Positions 7,405-14,983 of a stretch of DNA of 22,912 nt are shown piece by piece. Source of the stretch: a virus; IMG/VR virus record IMGVR_UViG_3300006810_000420, positions 1 to 22,912 of that record; one strand, given 5' to 3'. The notes beneath the pieces were generated by a model. That model searched no databases. It was given only the letters and a program-made list of their open reading frames with translations, and was not told the DNA's origin. Made by a program: the position numbers and the translations under genes. Numbering within the stretch: the stretch's first letter is position 1; each line of letters begins with the position of its first letter.

Positions 7405-10050
7405 TTATGAAGAAGTTACTGGTCTTGACGTGTATGCACCATCTAAATTGTTATCACTACCCTCTGGAACAGAGGCGGATGACGAGTCAGGTGGTCTAGA
7501 AGTTGAAGAAGATGATTGTCTCTCACTATTTAACCTAGCAACACCAGCAGTTGAACCTTGAGTTCTTTTTCTCCTTTCTGGTGGTTTTAAAGACTCTTGC
7601 TGTGCAGTTGCTGCTGATGCCGCAGTCTGTCCACTAGCAGCAGCAGGTGGTTGTATATTTGCAGCACTATTTTTTTTATTTTTTTCTTTAGCAGTTTTTA
7701 TAAAACTTTGCAAGACAGCGGCATGTGTAGGATCACTTGGAGGTACTGGCGTGCCTCCAAACAAATTACCACCTAATTTAAATAAATCAAATCCTTTAGT
7801 TGTTTTATATGCTTCATACAACACACCTTTATGCATGAACTTCATCTTATCATGAGTTCTCATTCCAAAGTTTTGAGTAACTGCTTGAGAAGTTTCTGGT
7901 GTTACAGCATCTGAATTACTACTGGGTGTTGGTGAGGGTTCAGTTGGACCTGCAGTTACAAGTTCTTTGTCTGCCCACATTCTAGCATTAGCAATTCTAG
8001 CATCATAGCCAGGATCTCCTGGTTGTTCGCCAGATCTTTCAAAGTTTTGCAACCAACTTCTGGCAGCAGCGTCAGCATCTGTTACTTCTTTAAGTTTTGA
8101 CCAGTCTCCTCTCTGTTTTGCCTCCCAAACCATTGCTTGAAGTTGTCCCTCCAAACTATATGGATCTAGACCCTGGTCCACTATCCATTTTTTGATTTTT
8201 GGCCAACGATGCACCTTATCCCATTGAGCGATTCCAAAGTGTCCCTCTGTATCATTTTCTCCAGTTCCAGTGTTATCTGCTCTTGGATTGAAAGTTGATT
8301 CTTGCTGTAAGTTTCCAGCAACACCTGCTGCTTGCTCTTTTGTCAAACCTTGAGACATAAGGTAATTCATTGTCATGTCACCACCTTCTCCCGTAAAGTT
8401 TGGAGAAGTTCCAGGATCACCACCACCACCACCACCGCCACCTCCACGGCGACCTCCAGTAGTAAGCTTCTTTAACTTATCAAATAAGTTACTGAAAAAT
8501 CCTTTCTTCTTATCCTTTGTTCCTCTTTTCCCACCACCATCTTTGTCGTCACCTTCTTTTCTCCCCATACCACCAGTTGCTTTGTTCACCAAGTTGTTTG
8601 GTAGTCCAAAGACATCAGCAATAGGTCTAGCAACTTTAGCTACCTCACCAGCAACATCAGAATTTTCTGGTCCTAATTGAGTAATTAATTGATTAACTGA
8701 CGACAAGATAGTACCACCAGCAACCATCATAGGTAATGACATAGCATCCATCAGTGGTTGTGCCATAGAGTCAGCAACACTACTAGATTTTGACCCCATA
8801 CCAAGATTGAGACTAGTAAATCCTACTTTACCTCCAAGGGATGAAGTTGCTGGTGGTTTTGATGGAGTTCCTGTCTCAAATTTAGGAACTGCAGGAGTCT
8901 CTGGTACAGGTCTGACCTTACCATCCATGGCACTAGGTTGACCTTGAGTGTAGTTATTGTCAAGTGGGATGACCATCTCATCACCATGCAACTTGGCAAG
9001 GTATCCCTCATCAGGTCCAGAAATGATACCACCTGTTTCGGCTTGAGGCATGTACCTATCTTGCTGCTGGAACTCAATGTCCTGTGCAGATGTAGCAGCA
9101 GGACTTGGTTCACCTAAATTCAATTCTGCATCGGATTTATCATCAAGACTCTCGTCTACTTCAGTAGTTACATCATCAAAGTCTCCAGAGTCAGCAGCAT
9201 CTCCTTGTTGTTTCGCTGCTGCCATAGACTTTGAAGTTTCCGCATCATCAGTCATCTTCTCTTGAAGTGCTGTCTGTGCATTAATAGCAGCAACAATAGC
9301 ATCAAGCTTTGCCTCAATACTATCAGTTCTCTCACTCAACTGGGTGACAACATCAGTCTTGATTGCTTGGACACCATCGGCAATGACTTTAGTCTCACCA
9401 ATAGTATTATTGATAGACTGTGCTGTCTTCTCAAGTGATGAAGCAATAGCAGACACCGCAGTAAGAATATCCTCTCTCGACACTCTACCACCGCCGCCAC
9501 CAGACGCTGCCTTGGCAGTCTTCTCCTCCGTCTTGGCAAGCATCCTCTCTTGAGTGACAGCCTTCTGCGACTGCGCCACATCAAAGGGAGACATCTTCTT
9601 CGGAACAACAGGCGTCTCTGCCTTCGCTTCCTTCTCTGGTGGTCTCTTGGCACTAACAAATGCGTAGTTATCAAACTGTTTACGAAATCTTTCGACCTCG
9701 TTTAGTTTCTTGATCTCTTTACCCTCGGCGTCTCTGTTGTCTACAAAGTTCCAGAACTGTGCCTTCGGATTCTTCAGCAGTTTGACACGATCAACTGCTG
9801 CCTTAATGTCTTGCTTCTTACCTGATAGATATGACCCACCGAACTTACTCTTCAGTGCTGCCTTAAAAAAGTATCCTTTCTCTACACCAATTTCTTCCAG
9901 ACTATCATAGCCTGCTTTCTTTGCCTTCTCTTCTGCTAACTTCCTCTCATCTTCAGCAAATCTACGCGCAGCAATAGCTTTGGAGATCAGTGACCCAAGA
10001 TGAGTCTGACCTCCTGTTGTATCTGTAAAGCCTTCTGTTCCTGCTGCCAT
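7405..10050 (-). CDS. Large tail/hub protein with phage tail lysozyme domain, 881 aa
   Basis: Residues about 557-697 fit a phage tail lysozyme domain: MNYLMSQGLTKEQAAGVAGN, then LQQESTFNPRADN with probable catalytic Glu584, EGHFGIAQWD, and a helical end with WLQNFERSGEQPG. Such domains cut peptidoglycan during infection. Before it are a charged helical N-terminus, a Gly-rich linker, a coiled-coil region (about 190-285), ETGGI...LHGDEMVIP (338-362), a hydrophobic stretch (430-490) and a run of nine Gly (536-544). The blocks from 190 to 490 reappear in the upstream gene product, so the two are paralogs. Position, size and composition suggest a tape-measure or hub-associated role inside the tail. 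The lysozyme domain is well supported; the tape-measure role is inferred. The start codon follows a late box at 10069-10076. Confidence 0.75.
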   Translation of the reverse strand: MAAGTEGFTDTTGGQTHLGSLISKAIAARRFAEDERKLAEEKAKKAGYDSLEEIGVEKGYFFKAALKSKFGGSYLSGKKQDIKAAVDRVKLLKNPKAQFWNFVDNRDAEGKEIKKLNEVERFRKQFDNYAFVSAKRPPEKEAKAETPVVPKKMSPFDVAQSQKAVTQERMLAKTEEKTAKAASGGGGGRVSREDILTAVSAIASSLEKTAQSINNTIGETKVIADGVQAIKTDVVTQLSERTDSIEAKLDAIVAAINAQTALQEKMTDDAETSKSMAAAKQQGDAADSGDFDDVTTEVDESLDDKSDAELNLGEPSPAATSAQDIEFQQQDRYMPQAETGGIISGPDEGYLAKLHGDEMVIPLDNNYTQGQPSAMDGKVRPVPETPAVPKFETGTPSKPPATSSLGGKVGFTSLNLGMGSKSSSVADSMAQPLMDAMSLPMMVAGGTILSSVNQLITQLGPENSDVAGEVAKVARPIADVFGLPNNLVNKATGGMGRKEGDDKDGGGKRGTKDKKKGFFSNLFDKLKKLTTGGRRGGGGGGGGGDPGTSPNFTGEGGDMTMNYLMSQGLTKEQAAGVAGNLQQESTFNPRADNTGTGENDTEGHFGIAQWDKVHRWPKIKKWIVDQGLDPYSLEGQLQAMVWEAKQRGDWSKLKEVTDADAAARSWLQNFERSGEQPGDPGYDARIANARMWADKELVTAGPTEPSPTPSSNSDAVTPETSQAVTQNFGMRTHDKMKFMHKGVLYEAYKTTKGFDLFKLGGNLFGGTPVPPSDPTHAAVLQSFIKTAKEKNKKNSAANIQPPAAASGQTAASAATAQQESLKPPERRKRTQGSTAGVARLNSERQSSSSTSRPPDSSSASVPEGSDNNLDGAYTSRPVTSS

Positions 10051-10077: not shown

Positions 10078-13000
10078 TCAAGCAAGTAACTTTTGCATCA
10101 ATAAAGTATTAGATGCATTTGAGTTTTTCTTTGACATCATCATAGGTCCACCCACAATTATTGGGGGTGGTGAAGGAGATTCCTGAATGATAATGATGGG
10201 ACCACCACCATCCTCATCATCTTCTTCATCATACATAAGAATCTCTGGTGTATATTGTCTAGTAGCTTGAATCAATTCACTAGTAGTTGTAGAAGCATTG
10301 TATGCATCAAGCATGTCAGATACTGGCTGGAAAGAAGCAACCAGATTCTTCATGACCTTTTCTTTTCCTTTATCACCAACAATAATACTTGTTGCTGTTG
10401 ATGGAGTGTCTCCACCTTCACCATACAGTTTACTTCCTTCTTGTGGTGCTTTACTACCATTCTCATCATATAATCCATGGGCAACTGAAGCATTAGCGCC
10501 AGAAACTTTAGCTGTGACACCAAAACCACCAGTGCGGTACTTCAAGTCTTCAGTCTTAAGCGGGAAAGGAACCTTTGCTCCTGGATAATCTGCACCACCA
10601 ATCTGCAAGTCAATACCTCCTTGCGATCCACCTGCAGTGTGTACTTCTTGTCCCCTCTTTACTTTCCGTTTGATATCTGCTGGACTGTCAGACTCCTGAA
10701 CATACTGTCCCAGTCTACCAATCCAGATAGTTTTTTTACCTTTGTAGTGATTGATTACTTTCTCTGCTACTGCTCTGGCATCAGCGTTACCACCAGGAGA
10801 CGTGATGTTACCATCTTTATAACTTCCTGGAGCAATGTGAAAGTGAATGCCATATGATGCGCCAGAATTACCTTGGATAAACTTACCATCACCACCCACA
10901 TCTCCACCAACTCCAGTCCCATCACCAACATCAACTTCATTTGGCATAGTAATACCAAATAATTTCAAAGCACCACCGAAGAAATCAGTAATGTTTCCCT
11001 TCATCTTTTCAAGGATAGACTCGTTGCCTTTCACTGTACCACCTTCAGGTCCAAACTCATCTGGATCTATATTCTCATCTTCATCTTCGGATTTCTTTTT
11101 AACATCTTTAAGTGTGCTATCAATGCCAGCAAACGATCCACCAACATTTGTCTGCGCTAGTGTAGTAGGAACATCAAAGACATTGGTTAGAGATCCAGCA
11201 ACTTGCTTAAACATAGGAGCAATCAATGCTGCTGCTGGTCCAGCTTGTGTCAAGAAGTTTGATGATGCTCCAATCAATGCACCACCAATAGGTGACAGTA
11301 AATCACCCGCCATGTTTTGATTACCAGTTCCTGTTTCAAACTTATCAGCAGGAATAATCGCTTCGGTGCCATGAAGCACAGCAAGTCCTGGTTTAGTAAG
11401 ACCACCAGTTTCTTTCTGTTGAGTTTCATCTAAAATTTTCTGATCTTGAGCGGTGAATTCTCTACCAGTAATAGCATTGAAAATATCATACATTAATAGT
11501 CCAGTATCAGCAGCGATGGATACTGCTTCAGCCGCTGCAGGTGCGATAGCACCAACACCACTAACTGCGGCAGGAGAAGTGGCAACGGTAACCAATCCAG
11601 CAGTGCCACCAACACCAGCAAGCCATGCTCCTACAGCATCACCCCTGTTTGCTCTATCAATAGCATCAGCAGCACTAACAGCAGATCCAGCAACAGGGAC
11701 CATTCTTCCACCAAATTTAGCACCTGCTAATGCTATTCTTTTAGAAATGGGAGAATTTCTTACAAAAGCAAGTCCTCTCTTACCATATCGTATAGCATCA
11801 TCACCAAATCTTTGACCAAATCTTGCTACACCTTCAATAACTTCGCCACCCCATCTTTTGGTAGCCCTAACAGCATCATCACCATATTTTACAGCATTAT
11901 CACCAAATTTTTGAGCACCTTTAACAGCATCATCAACTTTTCCACTTACAAAATTTCGTGCCCTATTAAATTGATTACCAATTCTCTCTTTATTTCTATT
12001 AACAAATCCACCAATACGATCTCTTTGATCAGAAACAAAACGACCAGCTCTATCCTTCTGTCTGTTTAAGAAATTACCAGCTCTTTCTTTCTGACTGTTT
12101 AAGAAATTTCCTGCTCTACGTTTAAGATTTTCTGGTCCGAACTTCATTCTCAACAAACGAAGACGAGACCTCAACCACTTTGGAGCGAACTTTTTCCACA
12201 ACCAACGAGCTATACGCCCAAAGTATTTTGAAAGTCCTCCACCACCAGATCCGCCGCCACCTTTCTTCTTATTAATGTCAGCGAATCCTTCTGTTCCAGC
12301 AGTATCAGACTGTCCTTGCGCGGCAGCAATGTCTCTTTCAGTTTCTGCTTCGTCTAATGCTTCTTCAGCTGCTGCAGTCTGTGCTTGGAAAGCACCAAGG
12401 ATAGCATCAAACTTTGCATTGAGTCCTTCATGACTCGTCTCAATTTCTTGCAGGTTAGAAACTGTAGTGCCGAGTGCTTCACCCAGCATTACATTCTGCT
12501 TCTTCAGTTCACCATCAATACTCGACAGTGTGCCAGCAATAGCATCCAGTGATGTAACAAGAGTCGATAAGATCTTGGAGTTAGATACAGAACTAGAAGA
12601 AGTCTTTGGTTTCTTTGGTGTCTTCTCGTAGTTACTACCAGTCTTTTGGTTGACTGCTGCCAGCATACCAGGGGGCAGTAAGTCTACGATGTCAGATAAA
12701 TCTGGTTGTTCTTCTTGAGTCTCCTCTTTTTCTTCCCAAGGATCTGGAAGTTTATCAGCAGCAGGTTCTTCTTCCGCAGGTTCTTCTGGTTGTGTCGCTT
12801 CAAATTGAGGAACTTCTACCTCTTCTATAGGAGCATCTTCAAGCGCCTCGTCTACTACTTCAGCAGCCTCTTCTATGTTCTCCTTTACTTCTTCCTCTGC
12901 TTCTTCTACAACCTCTTCCGCCTCTTCTTCTACTGCTTCCTCTTTCTGTTCATTAGAAACAGTCGTGTCTGTAAATCCTTCAGTAGAAGAAGTCTTTACT

Positions 13001-13299
13001 GGTAAATATCTTTCTACAATCCACTGTTGATATTCTCTCTCCGCTTCGCCACTGGTACTACCAGTTTGAAGCATAGGATACCCAGCGGTATCCTTTTTCA
13101 TGTTAGCAATGATCTTGTCAGCGTCAGAGTTAGATAATTTCTTATCTAAAAAAGAAAAATAACTGGTGCCACTATCGTCCGTGCCGCCAGTTAGTTTCGC
13201 TTTTAATCTATTGAAGATACGATCGTTCTGACCACCACCAGCCACTCCTGGTCTGTAACATTCAACTATTCCTTCTGGTGGTGGAGTGGTGAATTTCAT
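10078..13299 (-). CDS. Large tape-measure/baseplate-hub-like structural protein, 1073 aa
   Basis: Domain order seen: N-terminal region ending in TEGFTD (106-111); a highly acidic Glu-rich stretch (about 118-200); a coiled coil (235-330); a second TEGFAD (336-341) and Gly-rich linker; five 11-residue repeats of the RAGNFLNxQKE type (395-449); KFGDNAVKYGDDAV-like repeats (464-510); a hydrophobic Ala/Gly-rich segment (530-600) that could enter a membrane; ETGGLTKPGLAVLHGTEAII (630-649); a second hydrophobic part (665-715); and a C-terminal region with GIHFHIAPG (817-825) that vaguely recalls M23 peptidases. It is a paralog of the next gene product. Length, helices, repeats and position after the chaperone-like gp26 pair suggest a tape measure or hub filler, but no family match is certain. 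Its ATG overlaps the stop of the gp26 frameshift extension (ATGA). Confidence 0.65.
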   Translation of the reverse strand: MKFTTPPPEGIVECYRPGVAGGGQNDRIFNRLKAKLTGGTDDSGTSYFSFLDKKLSNSDADKIIANMKKDTAGYPMLQTGSTSGEAEREYQQWIVERYLPVKTSSTEGFTDTTVSNEQKEEAVEEEAEEVVEEAEEEVKENIEEAAEVVDEALEDAPIEEVEVPQFEATQPEEPAEEEPAADKLPDPWEEKEETQEEQPDLSDIVDLLPPGMLAAVNQKTGSNYEKTPKKPKTSSSSVSNSKILSTLVTSLDAIAGTLSSIDGELKKQNVMLGEALGTTVSNLQEIETSHEGLNAKFDAILGAFQAQTAAAEEALDEAETERDIAAAQGQSDTAGTEGFADINKKKGGGGSGGGGLSKYFGRIARWLWKKFAPKWLRSRLRLLRMKFGPENLKRRAGNFLNSQKERAGNFLNRQKDRAGRFVSDQRDRIGGFVNRNKERIGNQFNRARNFVSGKVDDAVKGAQKFGDNAVKYGDDAVRATKRWGGEVIEGVARFGQRFGDDAIRYGKRGLAFVRNSPISKRIALAGAKFGGRMVPVAGSAVSAADAIDRANRGDAVGAWLAGVGGTAGLVTVATSPAAVSGVGAIAPAAAEAVSIAADTGLLMYDIFNAITGREFTAQDQKILDETQQKETGGLTKPGLAVLHGTEAIIPADKFETGTGNQNMAGDLLSPIGGALIGASSNFLTQAGPAAALIAPMFKQVAGSLTNVFDVPTTLAQTNVGGSFAGIDSTLKDVKKKSEDEDENIDPDEFGPEGGTVKGNESILEKMKGNITDFFGGALKLFGITMPNEVDVGDGTGVGGDVGGDGKFIQGNSGASYGIHFHIAPGSYKDGNITSPGGNADARAVAEKVINHYKGKKTIWIGRLGQYVQESDSPADIKRKVKRGQEVHTAGGSQGGIDLQIGGADYPGAKVPFPLKTEDLKYRTGGFGVTAKVSGANASVAHGLYDENGSKAPQEGSKLYGEGGDTPSTATSIIVGDKGKEKVMKNLVASFQPVSDMLDAYNASTTTSELIQATRQYTPEILMYDEEDDEDGGGPIIIIQESPSPPPIIVGGPMMMSKKNSNASNTLLMQKLLA
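11953..12117 (-). repeat. Five tandem 33-bp units coding for 11-residue repeats
   Basis: The encoded units are RAGNFLNSQKE, RAGNFLNRQKD, RAGRFVSDQRD, RIGGFVNRNKE and RIGNQFNRARN. They share R-x-G-x-F at the start and a basic/acidic pair at the end. An 11-residue period suits a long straight amphipathic helix. The first two units are nearly identical, implying recent duplication. Confidence 0.75.
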
Positions 13300-13487
13300 C
13301 TACGAGCCTTTGCTTCTTCTGCTTTTTTCTTTTCTTCTTGAATGTGCTGAATCAACAGGGAAGTGTACACTTCACGCTCCCAAGGCATCATGTTTTCTAT
13401 TTCCGTCAAAGAGTATTTATGGTACTGCATCAAAGCAAAGTTAGTCTTGTAATAGCTTTCCAGACTATTCTGGAAAACTGCTATGCG
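13296..13487 (-). CDS. Frameshift extension of gp26 (63 aa, tail-chaperone T-type; gp51 position)
   Basis: This frame has no obvious start of its own near its beginning. It is entered by a -1 slip at the heptamer 13493-13487 and adds 63 residues beginning RIAVFQNSLESYYKTNFALM and containing YHKYSLTEIENMMPWERE, before a basic/acidic helix ending in EEAKARR. Its stop overlaps the next gene's ATG (ATGA). A fusion product would be 299 aa: 236 from gp26 plus 63. Tail assembly chaperones of many long-tailed phages (lambda G/GT) use this layout just upstream of the tape measure gene. T4 has separate gp26 and gp51 in hub assembly. An internal ATG (13430-13428, MQYHKYSL) could allow a short separate protein of 44 aa instead. 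The reading frame is certain to be open; the mechanism is inferred. Confidence 0.7.
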   Translation of the reverse strand, partial: RIAVFQNSLESYYKTNFALMQYHKYSLTEIENMMPWEREVYTSLLIQHIQEEKKKAEEAKARR

Positions 13488-13493
13488 AAAAAA
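13452..13493 (-). promoter_or_regulatory. Programmed -1 ribosomal frameshift signal
   Basis: Read in the gp26 frame, the minus strand has T_TTT_TTC (13493-13487), a canonical X_XXY_YYZ slippery site two codons before the gp26 stop. Immediately downstream, TTTCCAGA (13476-13469) and TCTGGAAA (13464-13457) form a perfect 8-bp stem with a 4-base loop. Outer arms ATAGC (13484-13480) and GCTAT (13456-13452) extend it by 5 bp across a 3-base bulge. Spacing from the slip site is 2 bases to the outer stem or 10 to the inner stem. Confidence 0.8.
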
Positions 13494-14194
13494 GACTGCA
13501 GACCCTCAATGGTATAGTTACACTCGTTACCAGTGTTGGGATTGATCACCGTAAATGTATGTGTCAGACGTGGCATAGTTTCATAGAACTTTTGAATTGC
13601 CTCGAACTGTTTGCTGGTTAGACTCTCAACAAACTCACGGAACTCTTTCTTTGTAGTAGTGGAAGAGTCATACACTTCTTCACCATCAAAGATCTGATCA
13701 ATGTGTTCGGCAATAAAGTTAAAGATATGCTCTGGATCCAAATCCTTATTAAGGAATTGGGATTCAATAAATCTATCCATGCTTGGATAGTTCATAATGA
13801 TTCCCAGGCTATCAGTCAGCATGATCTTTCTGTCATGTCCTTCCTGTTTCTTAACTTCAACACTATCAATGTTGATCTTTGCCTTTGCTTGAGTTTCATT
13901 GTCATCATTACATGTGACAGTCATCTCAATGACTTCGCCCACAGCAGCGGCACGAATCTTAAGGAACAGATACTCAAGATCAAATGATGGTAGTTCATCT
14001 ACCTTCACCCTAGAAAGAACACATGCTCTCAATGTATTCTTTACTGCGCTGATAACTTCCTTTTCGTTGTTACCTTCCAGTGCTAGAAGCAATACTTTCT
14101 CTTCTTTAACTAGGAATGGTCTATACTTTACAGTCTTGCCTGTAGATGGTAGAGATAGTTCGTACTGTGGTACACCAAGTTTAGGTAATGCCAT
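13481..14194 (-). CDS. 26: gp26 baseplate hub assembly protein, 237 aa
   Basis: The protein starts MALPKLGVPQYELSLPSTGK and continues with YRPFLVKEEKVLLLALE and NTLRACV, the pattern of the T4 gp26-type base plate protein family (PF12322 as I recall it). These proteins help assemble the baseplate hub and are not thought to stay as major structural parts. T4 gp26 is 208 aa, so the length fits. The C-terminal half contains EFVESLTSKQFEAIQKFYET and then MPRLTHTFTV. The last codons contain the slippery sequence described separately, so a fraction of ribosomes may make a 299-residue fusion. A late box (14220-14227) lies 26 bases upstream of the ATG; there is no clear Shine-Dalgarno sequence. Confidence 0.85.
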   Translation of the reverse strand: MALPKLGVPQYELSLPSTGKTVKYRPFLVKEEKVLLLALEGNNEKEVISAVKNTLRACVLSRVKVDELPSFDLEYLFLKIRAAAVGEVIEMTVTCNDDNETQAKAKINIDSVEVKKQEGHDRKIMLTDSLGIIMNYPSMDRFIESQFLNKDLDPEHIFNFIAEHIDQIFDGEEVYDSSTTTKKEFREFVESLTSKQFEAIQKFYETMPRLTHTFTVINPNTGNECNYTIEGLQSFFA

Positions 14195-14299: not shown

Positions 14300-14983
14300 T
14301 CATCTAGTTGCATCTCCAAACACAACAGTGTGCTTCTGATAGTAGAAGTTAGCTGTAACCTTTGTGATCTGTGACGTACCATACGACAGAGGAACAGAGT
14401 CAATAGAATATGGAAATGCGTTCTGTAGGATATAGGATATACCTGCTCTGCCGTTAGGGGCAGCACCACTCTTTTCAGTCTTGGTGATTCTCATTACTGG
14501 ACACAGATAATCTTCAGGGTATCTTAACCTCACCTCTCTGCTTATTGGCAACGGCTTTACCGCCTTGATAGCACTCAATCCTGCTCCAGACACTGTTGGT
14601 TCATCACCAGCACCACCAGAAAAAATATATGAATGCCACGCAGTTACAAACTTCAATGGTGTCATATTAGCATCACACATCCATGTTAAAGATACGTCAC
14701 TATAAAATTTTGCATACGCATAATTAATTTGACTCTCCCCCAAAACTCTACCACTCAACTGCCCAGTAGCTGTCTGAATATTGGGTAACTGTGCTTCATC
14801 ACATAGAAGTTTGATCAAAATAGAACTATCTGACGGTCCTTTCGGGTTAGTAATATCCCCAATCTTATTGTTTGTCATAACTCTCTGCAAATCACCCGAT
14901 ATCTCAAAGTCTACGTCATATCCATTAGTCATGGACATGCCGCCAGCAGCGGAAATAGATTGTAAGAAAGTATCTAGTGACAC
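14300..14983 (-). CDS. Tail-tube-like structural protein (gp19/gp54 type), 227 aa
   Basis: The N-terminus MSLDTFLQSISAAGG and the C-terminal YGTSQITKVTANFYYQKHTV resemble the T4-like tail tube fold (gp19, also used in gp48 and gp54). The gene lies in the baseplate cluster, not next to a tail sheath gene, so it may be a tube initiator or a second tube-like protein rather than the main tube protein. The start codon is GTG (14983-14981); the only early ATG (residue 15) would remove the conserved-looking N-terminus. A perfect T4 late box (TATAAATA, 15018-15011) lies upstream. Fold confidence is moderate; the exact counterpart (gp54 or another) is uncertain. Confidence 0.65.
   Translation of the reverse strand: MSLDTFLQSISAAGGMSMTNGYDVDFEISGDLQRVMTNNKIGDITNPKGPSDSSILIKLLCDEAQLPNIQTATGQLSGRVLGESQINYAYAKFYSDVSLTWMCDANMTPLKFVTAWHSYIFSGGAGDEPTVSGAGLSAIKAVKPLPISREVRLRYPEDYLCPVMRITKTEKSGAAPNGRAGISYILQNAFPYSIDSVPLSYGTSQITKVTANFYYQKHTVVFGDATR

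Follow-up and report, generated by a model that had tools for sequence, protein, structure and literature searches.

The abstract of the study that identified the tail assembly chaperones of T4-like phages reportedly says that several T4-like groups retain frameshifting, while T4 relies on two distinct genes, 26 and 51. That study identified gp26 and gp51 as these chaperones (Vladimirov, Gautam and Davidson, Virology 2022, 566:9-15). A 2025 paper on phage Adele (PMC12846349) refers to it for -1 signals of the poly-T type in the TAC-N genes of T4-like phages, and the PRFect paper (PMC10885494) for the arrangement of a short gene plus a fusion. In phage lambda, immediately upstream of the tape measure, G/GT likewise comprises a short form and a long form that is extended by a -1 frameshift, and such a frameshift is conserved among long-tailed phages (Xu, Hendrix and Duda 2004). 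The tail chaperone frameshift of the Pakpunavirus Adele uses a GTTTTT motif and is from a different phage family (PMC12846349). A non-phage system, dnaX of E. coli, combines a Shine-Dalgarno-like (SD-like) element 9-14 nt upstream, a heptamer, and an 11-bp hairpin shortly downstream; 9-14 nt is also given as the working distance of SD-like stimulators of -1 frameshifting in the same source (PMC5009743).

The locus that we describe here encodes the same proteins as the published T4-like case, in which T4 itself has the two forms as separate genes. The frameshift principle for T4-like chaperones is already published; what is new is this contig as a further case, with its stimulators resolved in detail. 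The locus resembles lambda G/GT in its arrangement, but we detected no sequence homology between the two, the heptamers differ, and the T4-like site has a conserved SD-like element and a conserved hairpin. We know of no SD-like or hairpin stimulator at the lambda site. By sequence and position, the dnaX-type features are all present: an SD-like element, an in-frame heptamer of the form X_XXY_YYZ, and a downstream hairpin, with stimulation by the outer two being a prediction. The dnaX heptamer is A_AAA_AAG, whereas here it is U_UUU_UUC, and the shift shortens the dnaX protein but would extend gp26.

By "the window" we mean the entire stretch of DNA that we analyzed, a 22.9-kb viral record (IMGVR_UViG_3300006810_000420) from a marine T4-like cyanophage near Synechococcus phage S-CAM3 (Kyanoviridae, Charybdisvirus). 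The 1.8 kb that surround the site are 84% identical to S-CAM3 over 97% of their length, and the gp26 proteins are 91% identical. All of the features below are on the minus strand. The short chaperone (TAC-N) is gp26, a zero-frame protein of 237 amino acids encoded at 13481..14194; it matches PF12322 (T4_baseplate, E = 2.3e-70), far above the cut-off, and phrog_150 (baseplate hub, E = 2e-79). The preceding gene (14300..14983) encodes a tail tube-type protein, with matches to PF23849 (Phage_TTP_2, E = 2.5e-43) and phrog_45 (tail tube). The gp51 or TAC-C part of the putative fusion lies in the -1 frame at 13296..13487 (63 codons plus the stop TGA) and matches phrog_634, "baseplate hub assembly catalyst," which is gp51 (E = 1.4e-29); the initial annotation was right to call it gp51-like. 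The next gene (10078..13299, 1073 amino acids) belongs to phrog_11440, a family of unknown function, and has a weak match to the tape-measure family phrog_4070 (E = 0.013). We presume that it is the tape measure, mainly because of its position. The order is thus tube, gp26, gp51, and a large structural gene, with the tube-type gene confirmed upstream and the 1073-aa gene downstream weakly tape-measure-like, and the G/GT-like layout that had been proposed holds to that extent.

The 3' end of gp26 reads GGT CTG CAG TCT TTT TTC GCA TAG. The slippery heptamer T_TTT_TTC (13487..13493) is in the zero-frame register, and a single codon (GCA) separates it from the stop codon TAG (13481..13483). Past the heptamer, the -1 frame reads CGC ATA GCA ... 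CGT AGA TGA and stays open for 63 codons (13487-13299). Its stop codon, TGA at 13298-13296, shares bases with the start codon of the following gene (ATG, 13299-13297), as ATGA. These elements and their coordinates had been read correctly in the initial annotation, down to the base. By itself, TTTTTTC is not rare: it occurs 11 times in the window, with 7.4 occurrences expected. A chance heptamer would not explain the conservation described below; the significance of the site lies in the combination of its parts and in their conservation.

Given this combination, we think it very probable that ribosomes undergo a programmed -1 frameshift at this site, and that a tail assembly chaperone is thereby made in two forms. 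The slippage itself, its efficiency, and the role of the products as chaperones are our predictions. Most ribosomes would terminate at the TAG and release gp26 of 237 amino acids. The downstream hairpin would delay a fraction of them, on which pairing between an upstream GAGGG and the 16S rRNA would also pull. These ribosomes would slip back by one base on U_UUU_UUC, with both Phe tRNAs re-pairing, so that two tRNA-Phe slip in tandem from UUU UUC to UUU UUU. They would then read 63 more codons and make a gp26-gp51 fusion of about 299 amino acids (...LQSFFRIAVFQNSLE...). By analogy with lambda G/GT and T4 gp26/gp51, the gp26 portion may coat the tape measure, and the gp51 portion may recruit tail tube subunits or the hub. 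Tandem slippage of tRNA-Phe, stimulated by an internal SD and a hairpin, is the simplest reading of the site.

We asked how widely the heptamer is kept. Among relatives from viral contigs, all 80 (47-89% identity) have a gp26 that ends with an in-frame T_TTT_TTC. In an enlarged set, T_TTT_TTN is present in 185 of 195 distinct loci, as T_TTT_TTC (161), T_TTT_TTA (21), T_TTT_TTT (2), or T_TTT_TTG (1); the loci are related, so these counts overstate their independence. (Three scans of viral contigs, whose queries came from Ackermannviridae, Cr30, and Vibrio phages, yielded two loci each.) We reduced the effect of kinship by clustering for the SD-like element and by using disjoint pairs for substitutions in the -1 frame. 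Nearly all of the 185 loci have one codon between the heptamer and the stop; three have two. Outside of the Ackermannviridae-type phages, every distinct relative with a scorable site has the heptamer (185/185), always in the zero-frame register. The initial annotation had named relatives that lack the slippery site and keep a separately started gene as evidence against frameshifting; outside of the Ackermannviridae-type group, we found none among those with a scorable site. The heptamer extends beyond the cyanophages to Vibrio phages of Schizotequatrovirus, Sinorhizobium phages phiM9 and phiM19, Caulobacter phage Cr30, Aeromonas phage AS-yj, Stenotrophomonas phage Moby, Xanthomonas phage X1, and Nitratidesulfovibrio phage SRB7757. 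At every site, the last base of the codon that precedes the heptamer is T, whereas comparable codons in other places end in T about 65% of the time. Away from the site, only 11 of 170 Phe-Phe pairs in these genes are encoded by TTT TTC. The 21 loci with T_TTT_TTA encode Phe-Leu instead of Phe-Phe.

Upstream of the heptamer we identified an element that the initial annotation, which had nothing upstream of the site, did not include. GAGGG (13503..13507) is SD-like, lies 9 nt before the heptamer, and is a putative stimulator. Together with the heptamer and the hairpin, it gives the site the three-part layout of dnaX. Across 123 clusters of relatives, predicted pairing to the anti-SD sequence peaks at this offset, at about -6.5 kcal/mol as compared to 0.06 for the background. 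Synonymous-codon nulls averaged -4.9, and the observed value (-6.56) was stronger than all 200 of them. Also, a Glu at the position of the element is encoded by GAG in 80 of 104 clusters, versus 31.2 expected. So the amino acids alone explain part of the signal, and the element is selected beyond the amino acid constraint. We found no prior description of an SD-like element at this site in the literature that we searched, which was mostly outside of subscription journals.

An SD-like element just upstream of a stop codon could also serve translational coupling, in which ribosomes would finish gp26 and then reinitiate at a start codon that overlaps its stop. Such an overlap (TAATG or TGATG) does occur at 11 of the 185 sites, including those of Cr30, Vibrio phage phi-ST2, phiM9, phiM19, and Moby. 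But the other 174 sites have no overlapping start, and the window, which reads GCA TAG CAG, is among them. Furthermore, the phages with the overlap retain the heptamer, and the SD-like element is spaced for -1 slippage and not for a start codon. We consider coupling to be extremely unlikely and reject it for the window, while in a few relatives it may be an addition. In loci L085-L088 and L107, which have TAATG or TGATG as well as the heptamer, a separate short gp51 could also be made.

The predicted frameshift signal also includes a hairpin, which begins 7 nt past the heptamer (13454..13479). Its arms, 13479-13469 and 13464-13454, form 11 bp around a 4-nt loop. The hairpin that the initial annotation described is confirmed, with a stem slightly longer than the 8 bp given there. 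The additional pairing of ATAGC with GCTAT that had been proposed is absent from the minimum-energy fold of the window, although equivalent pairing is found in S-CAM3 and in locus L003. The window's hairpin has a folding energy of -14.3 kcal/mol (z = -3.8 relative to dinucleotide shuffles), and just 2 of 200 shuffles fold as well. Across 184 loci, the 50 nt past the heptamer have a mean folding z of -2.47, versus +0.17 for a control stretch that lies 60 nt further on. A helix of 6 bp or more with a spacer of 4-10 nt is found in 54% of relatives and in 5.5% of control stretches, so under this strict rule the hairpin is not in every relative. Sixteen sequences have the same register as the window. 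Across them, pairing of the 11-bp stem reaches 90%, and five of them have exchanged a C-G pair for G-C; two controls both scored lower, on paired cells and on covariation. Because the exact pairs vary between groups, it is the presence and the position of the hairpin that are conserved. In the comparison across relatives that the initial annotation had proposed as a check, the heptamer (outside of the Ackermannviridae-type phages), the presence of a hairpin, and the -1 frame are conserved.

The conservation of these parts also bears on transcriptional slippage, in which RNA polymerase would add an extra U to a share of the mRNAs at the run of six T. The run is kept at all sites. Six T is short for slippage by bacterial polymerases, however, and at every site the run has the register that tandem tRNA slippage requires. 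Transcriptional slippage would need neither this register, nor the SD-like element, nor the hairpin, yet all are conserved. We judge this explanation to be extremely unlikely.

We next asked where translation of the -1 frame begins. We aligned 171 extensions. Nearly all of them begin with FFR and have NF at positions 17-18, and we found no conserved start codon from the heptamer to the HKYS motif. We then counted synonymous and nonsynonymous changes, using codons with a single change in 78 independent close pairs. Between the heptamer and an internal Met codon (ATG at 13430 in the window), the -1 frame has 252 synonymous and 96 nonsynonymous changes, or 72% synonymous, as compared to a random expectation of 19%. 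In the other two frames of the same stretch, the counts are 50/286 and 42/307. After the internal Met, the ratio for the -1 frame is nearly the same as before it (421/139). Because selection on the protein starts at the heptamer, before the internal Met, the -1 frame must be entered at or very near the heptamer.

These data also address another explanation for gp51, that it is a small separate protein which starts within the -1 frame, at ATG 13430 or at another internal codon. The window does have this ATG, and public records do show gp51 as a separate gene: where it is annotated, it usually appears this way, with 43 amino acids in Syn1, 57 in S-PM2, 44 in S-CAM3, and 30 in P-HM2. But these starts are scattered, non-homologous, and in disagreement with one another. 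ATG 13430 is kept in just 60% of relatives, and the others (about 40%) have Val or Ile codons there. The 18 codons upstream of it are under strong selection as protein in the -1 frame, and this is the case that the initial annotation had set against frameshifting: in sequence, it fails. We consider an internal start to be very unlikely and reject it. Instead, the site, the selection on the -1 frame, and the missing start codon support a single shifted gp26-gp51 fusion, as first suggested, and not two genes.

Ten loci lack the heptamer. Nine of these are from Ackermannviridae or from a related Vibrio group, and the tenth is from Stenotrophomonas phage IME-SM1. In IME-SM1 (L109, 1468-2310), the slippery run is one T shorter than in Moby, so its gp26 is annotated with a 281-aa end, which is not found in any relative. 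The missing T is likely to be a sequencing error. The Ackermannviridae (KpS110, Det7, Coodle, 2050H1, Bue1, GR28A, and YC) and the 157-kb Vibrio phages (K475 and D506) keep the gp51-like -1 frame, with its MPW motif. None of the gp26 3' ends from these two groups (L090, L091, L098-L103, L105, and L110) has the canonical heptamer. Their sites read NTT TTC, GCT TTC, or CTT TTT, with one further codon ahead of the stop, and all of them have U_UUC or U_UUU in the last codons. Because these relatives keep the -1 frame without the heptamer, the frame change is not always made by way of the canonical site. Candidate devices are a slip of a single tRNA or, in some of these phages, a restart at TAATG.

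T4 differs in another way. PF12322 includes both T4 gp26 (E = 8.8e-64) and T4 gp51 (E = 3.9e-52), and in T4 gp51, this domain runs in frame into the gp51 tail domain (phrog_634, at the C-terminal part). A profile comparison of the window's gp26 with T4 gp51 gives 86% probability; the Pfam evidence is stronger. T4 genes 26 and 51 are divergent neighbours. From these domain contents, T4 has one gene for the short form and another for the long form, in contrast to the single frameshifted gene of other T4-like phages. The two-gene state of T4 would have arisen by duplication. Having two genes in place of recoding would account for two remarks in the literature: T4 was once named as the exception to G/GT frameshifting (PMC5009743), and a comparison from 2010 described the cyanophage gp51 as being without its first ~200 residues (PMC3037559). 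On our reading, nothing is missing from the cyanophage gp51, since the frameshift joins it to gp26, which contributes the part in question.

We also considered a broader proposal, which is tentative and on balance somewhat doubtful. T4-like cyanophages and their wider kin may use a dnaX-type cassette (an internal SD, U_UUU_UUN, and a hairpin) that yields a much higher share of the long form than in lambda. The cassette might have been replaced by gene duplication in T4, and by a non-canonical slip at U_UUC or a restart in the Ackermannviridae. Both the cassette and the Ackermannviridae case may be undescribed. In the literature that we searched, which was mostly outside of subscription journals, we found no paper that describes the site in cyanophages specifically.

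A public phage collection has 570 records with a gp51-like match, and the erroneous annotation of gp51 as a truncated separate gene probably runs through hundreds of cyanophage records. In other words, gene catalogues would be misreading one frameshifted chaperone gene of the T4-like cyanophages as two genes. With its conserved three-part signal, the site also offers a ready test of how phages tune their chaperone ratios in cyanobacteria.

Finally, we examined the structure of gp26 and the genes after it. A predicted structure of gp26 (pLDDT 86, pTM 0.79) matches T4-like baseplate hub proteins in a viral library, including that of Serratia phage 2050H1. When the PDB was searched with this model, using Foldseek, there was no significant match, and the HK97 tail assembly chaperone 2OB9 was the only entry with an appreciable probability (0.57; TMt 0.43; a weak match, with E = 1.7). 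Searching the PDB with the sequence of gp26 gave nothing useful. The match to 2OB9 may hint at a chaperone fold.

The presumed tape measure is followed by a gene for an 881-aa protein (7405-10050 in the window) with a tail lysozyme domain (PF18013, E = 7.5e-28). This protein shares a segment with phrog_11440, which is the family of the 1073-aa gene, and either of these two genes is a candidate for the tape measure.
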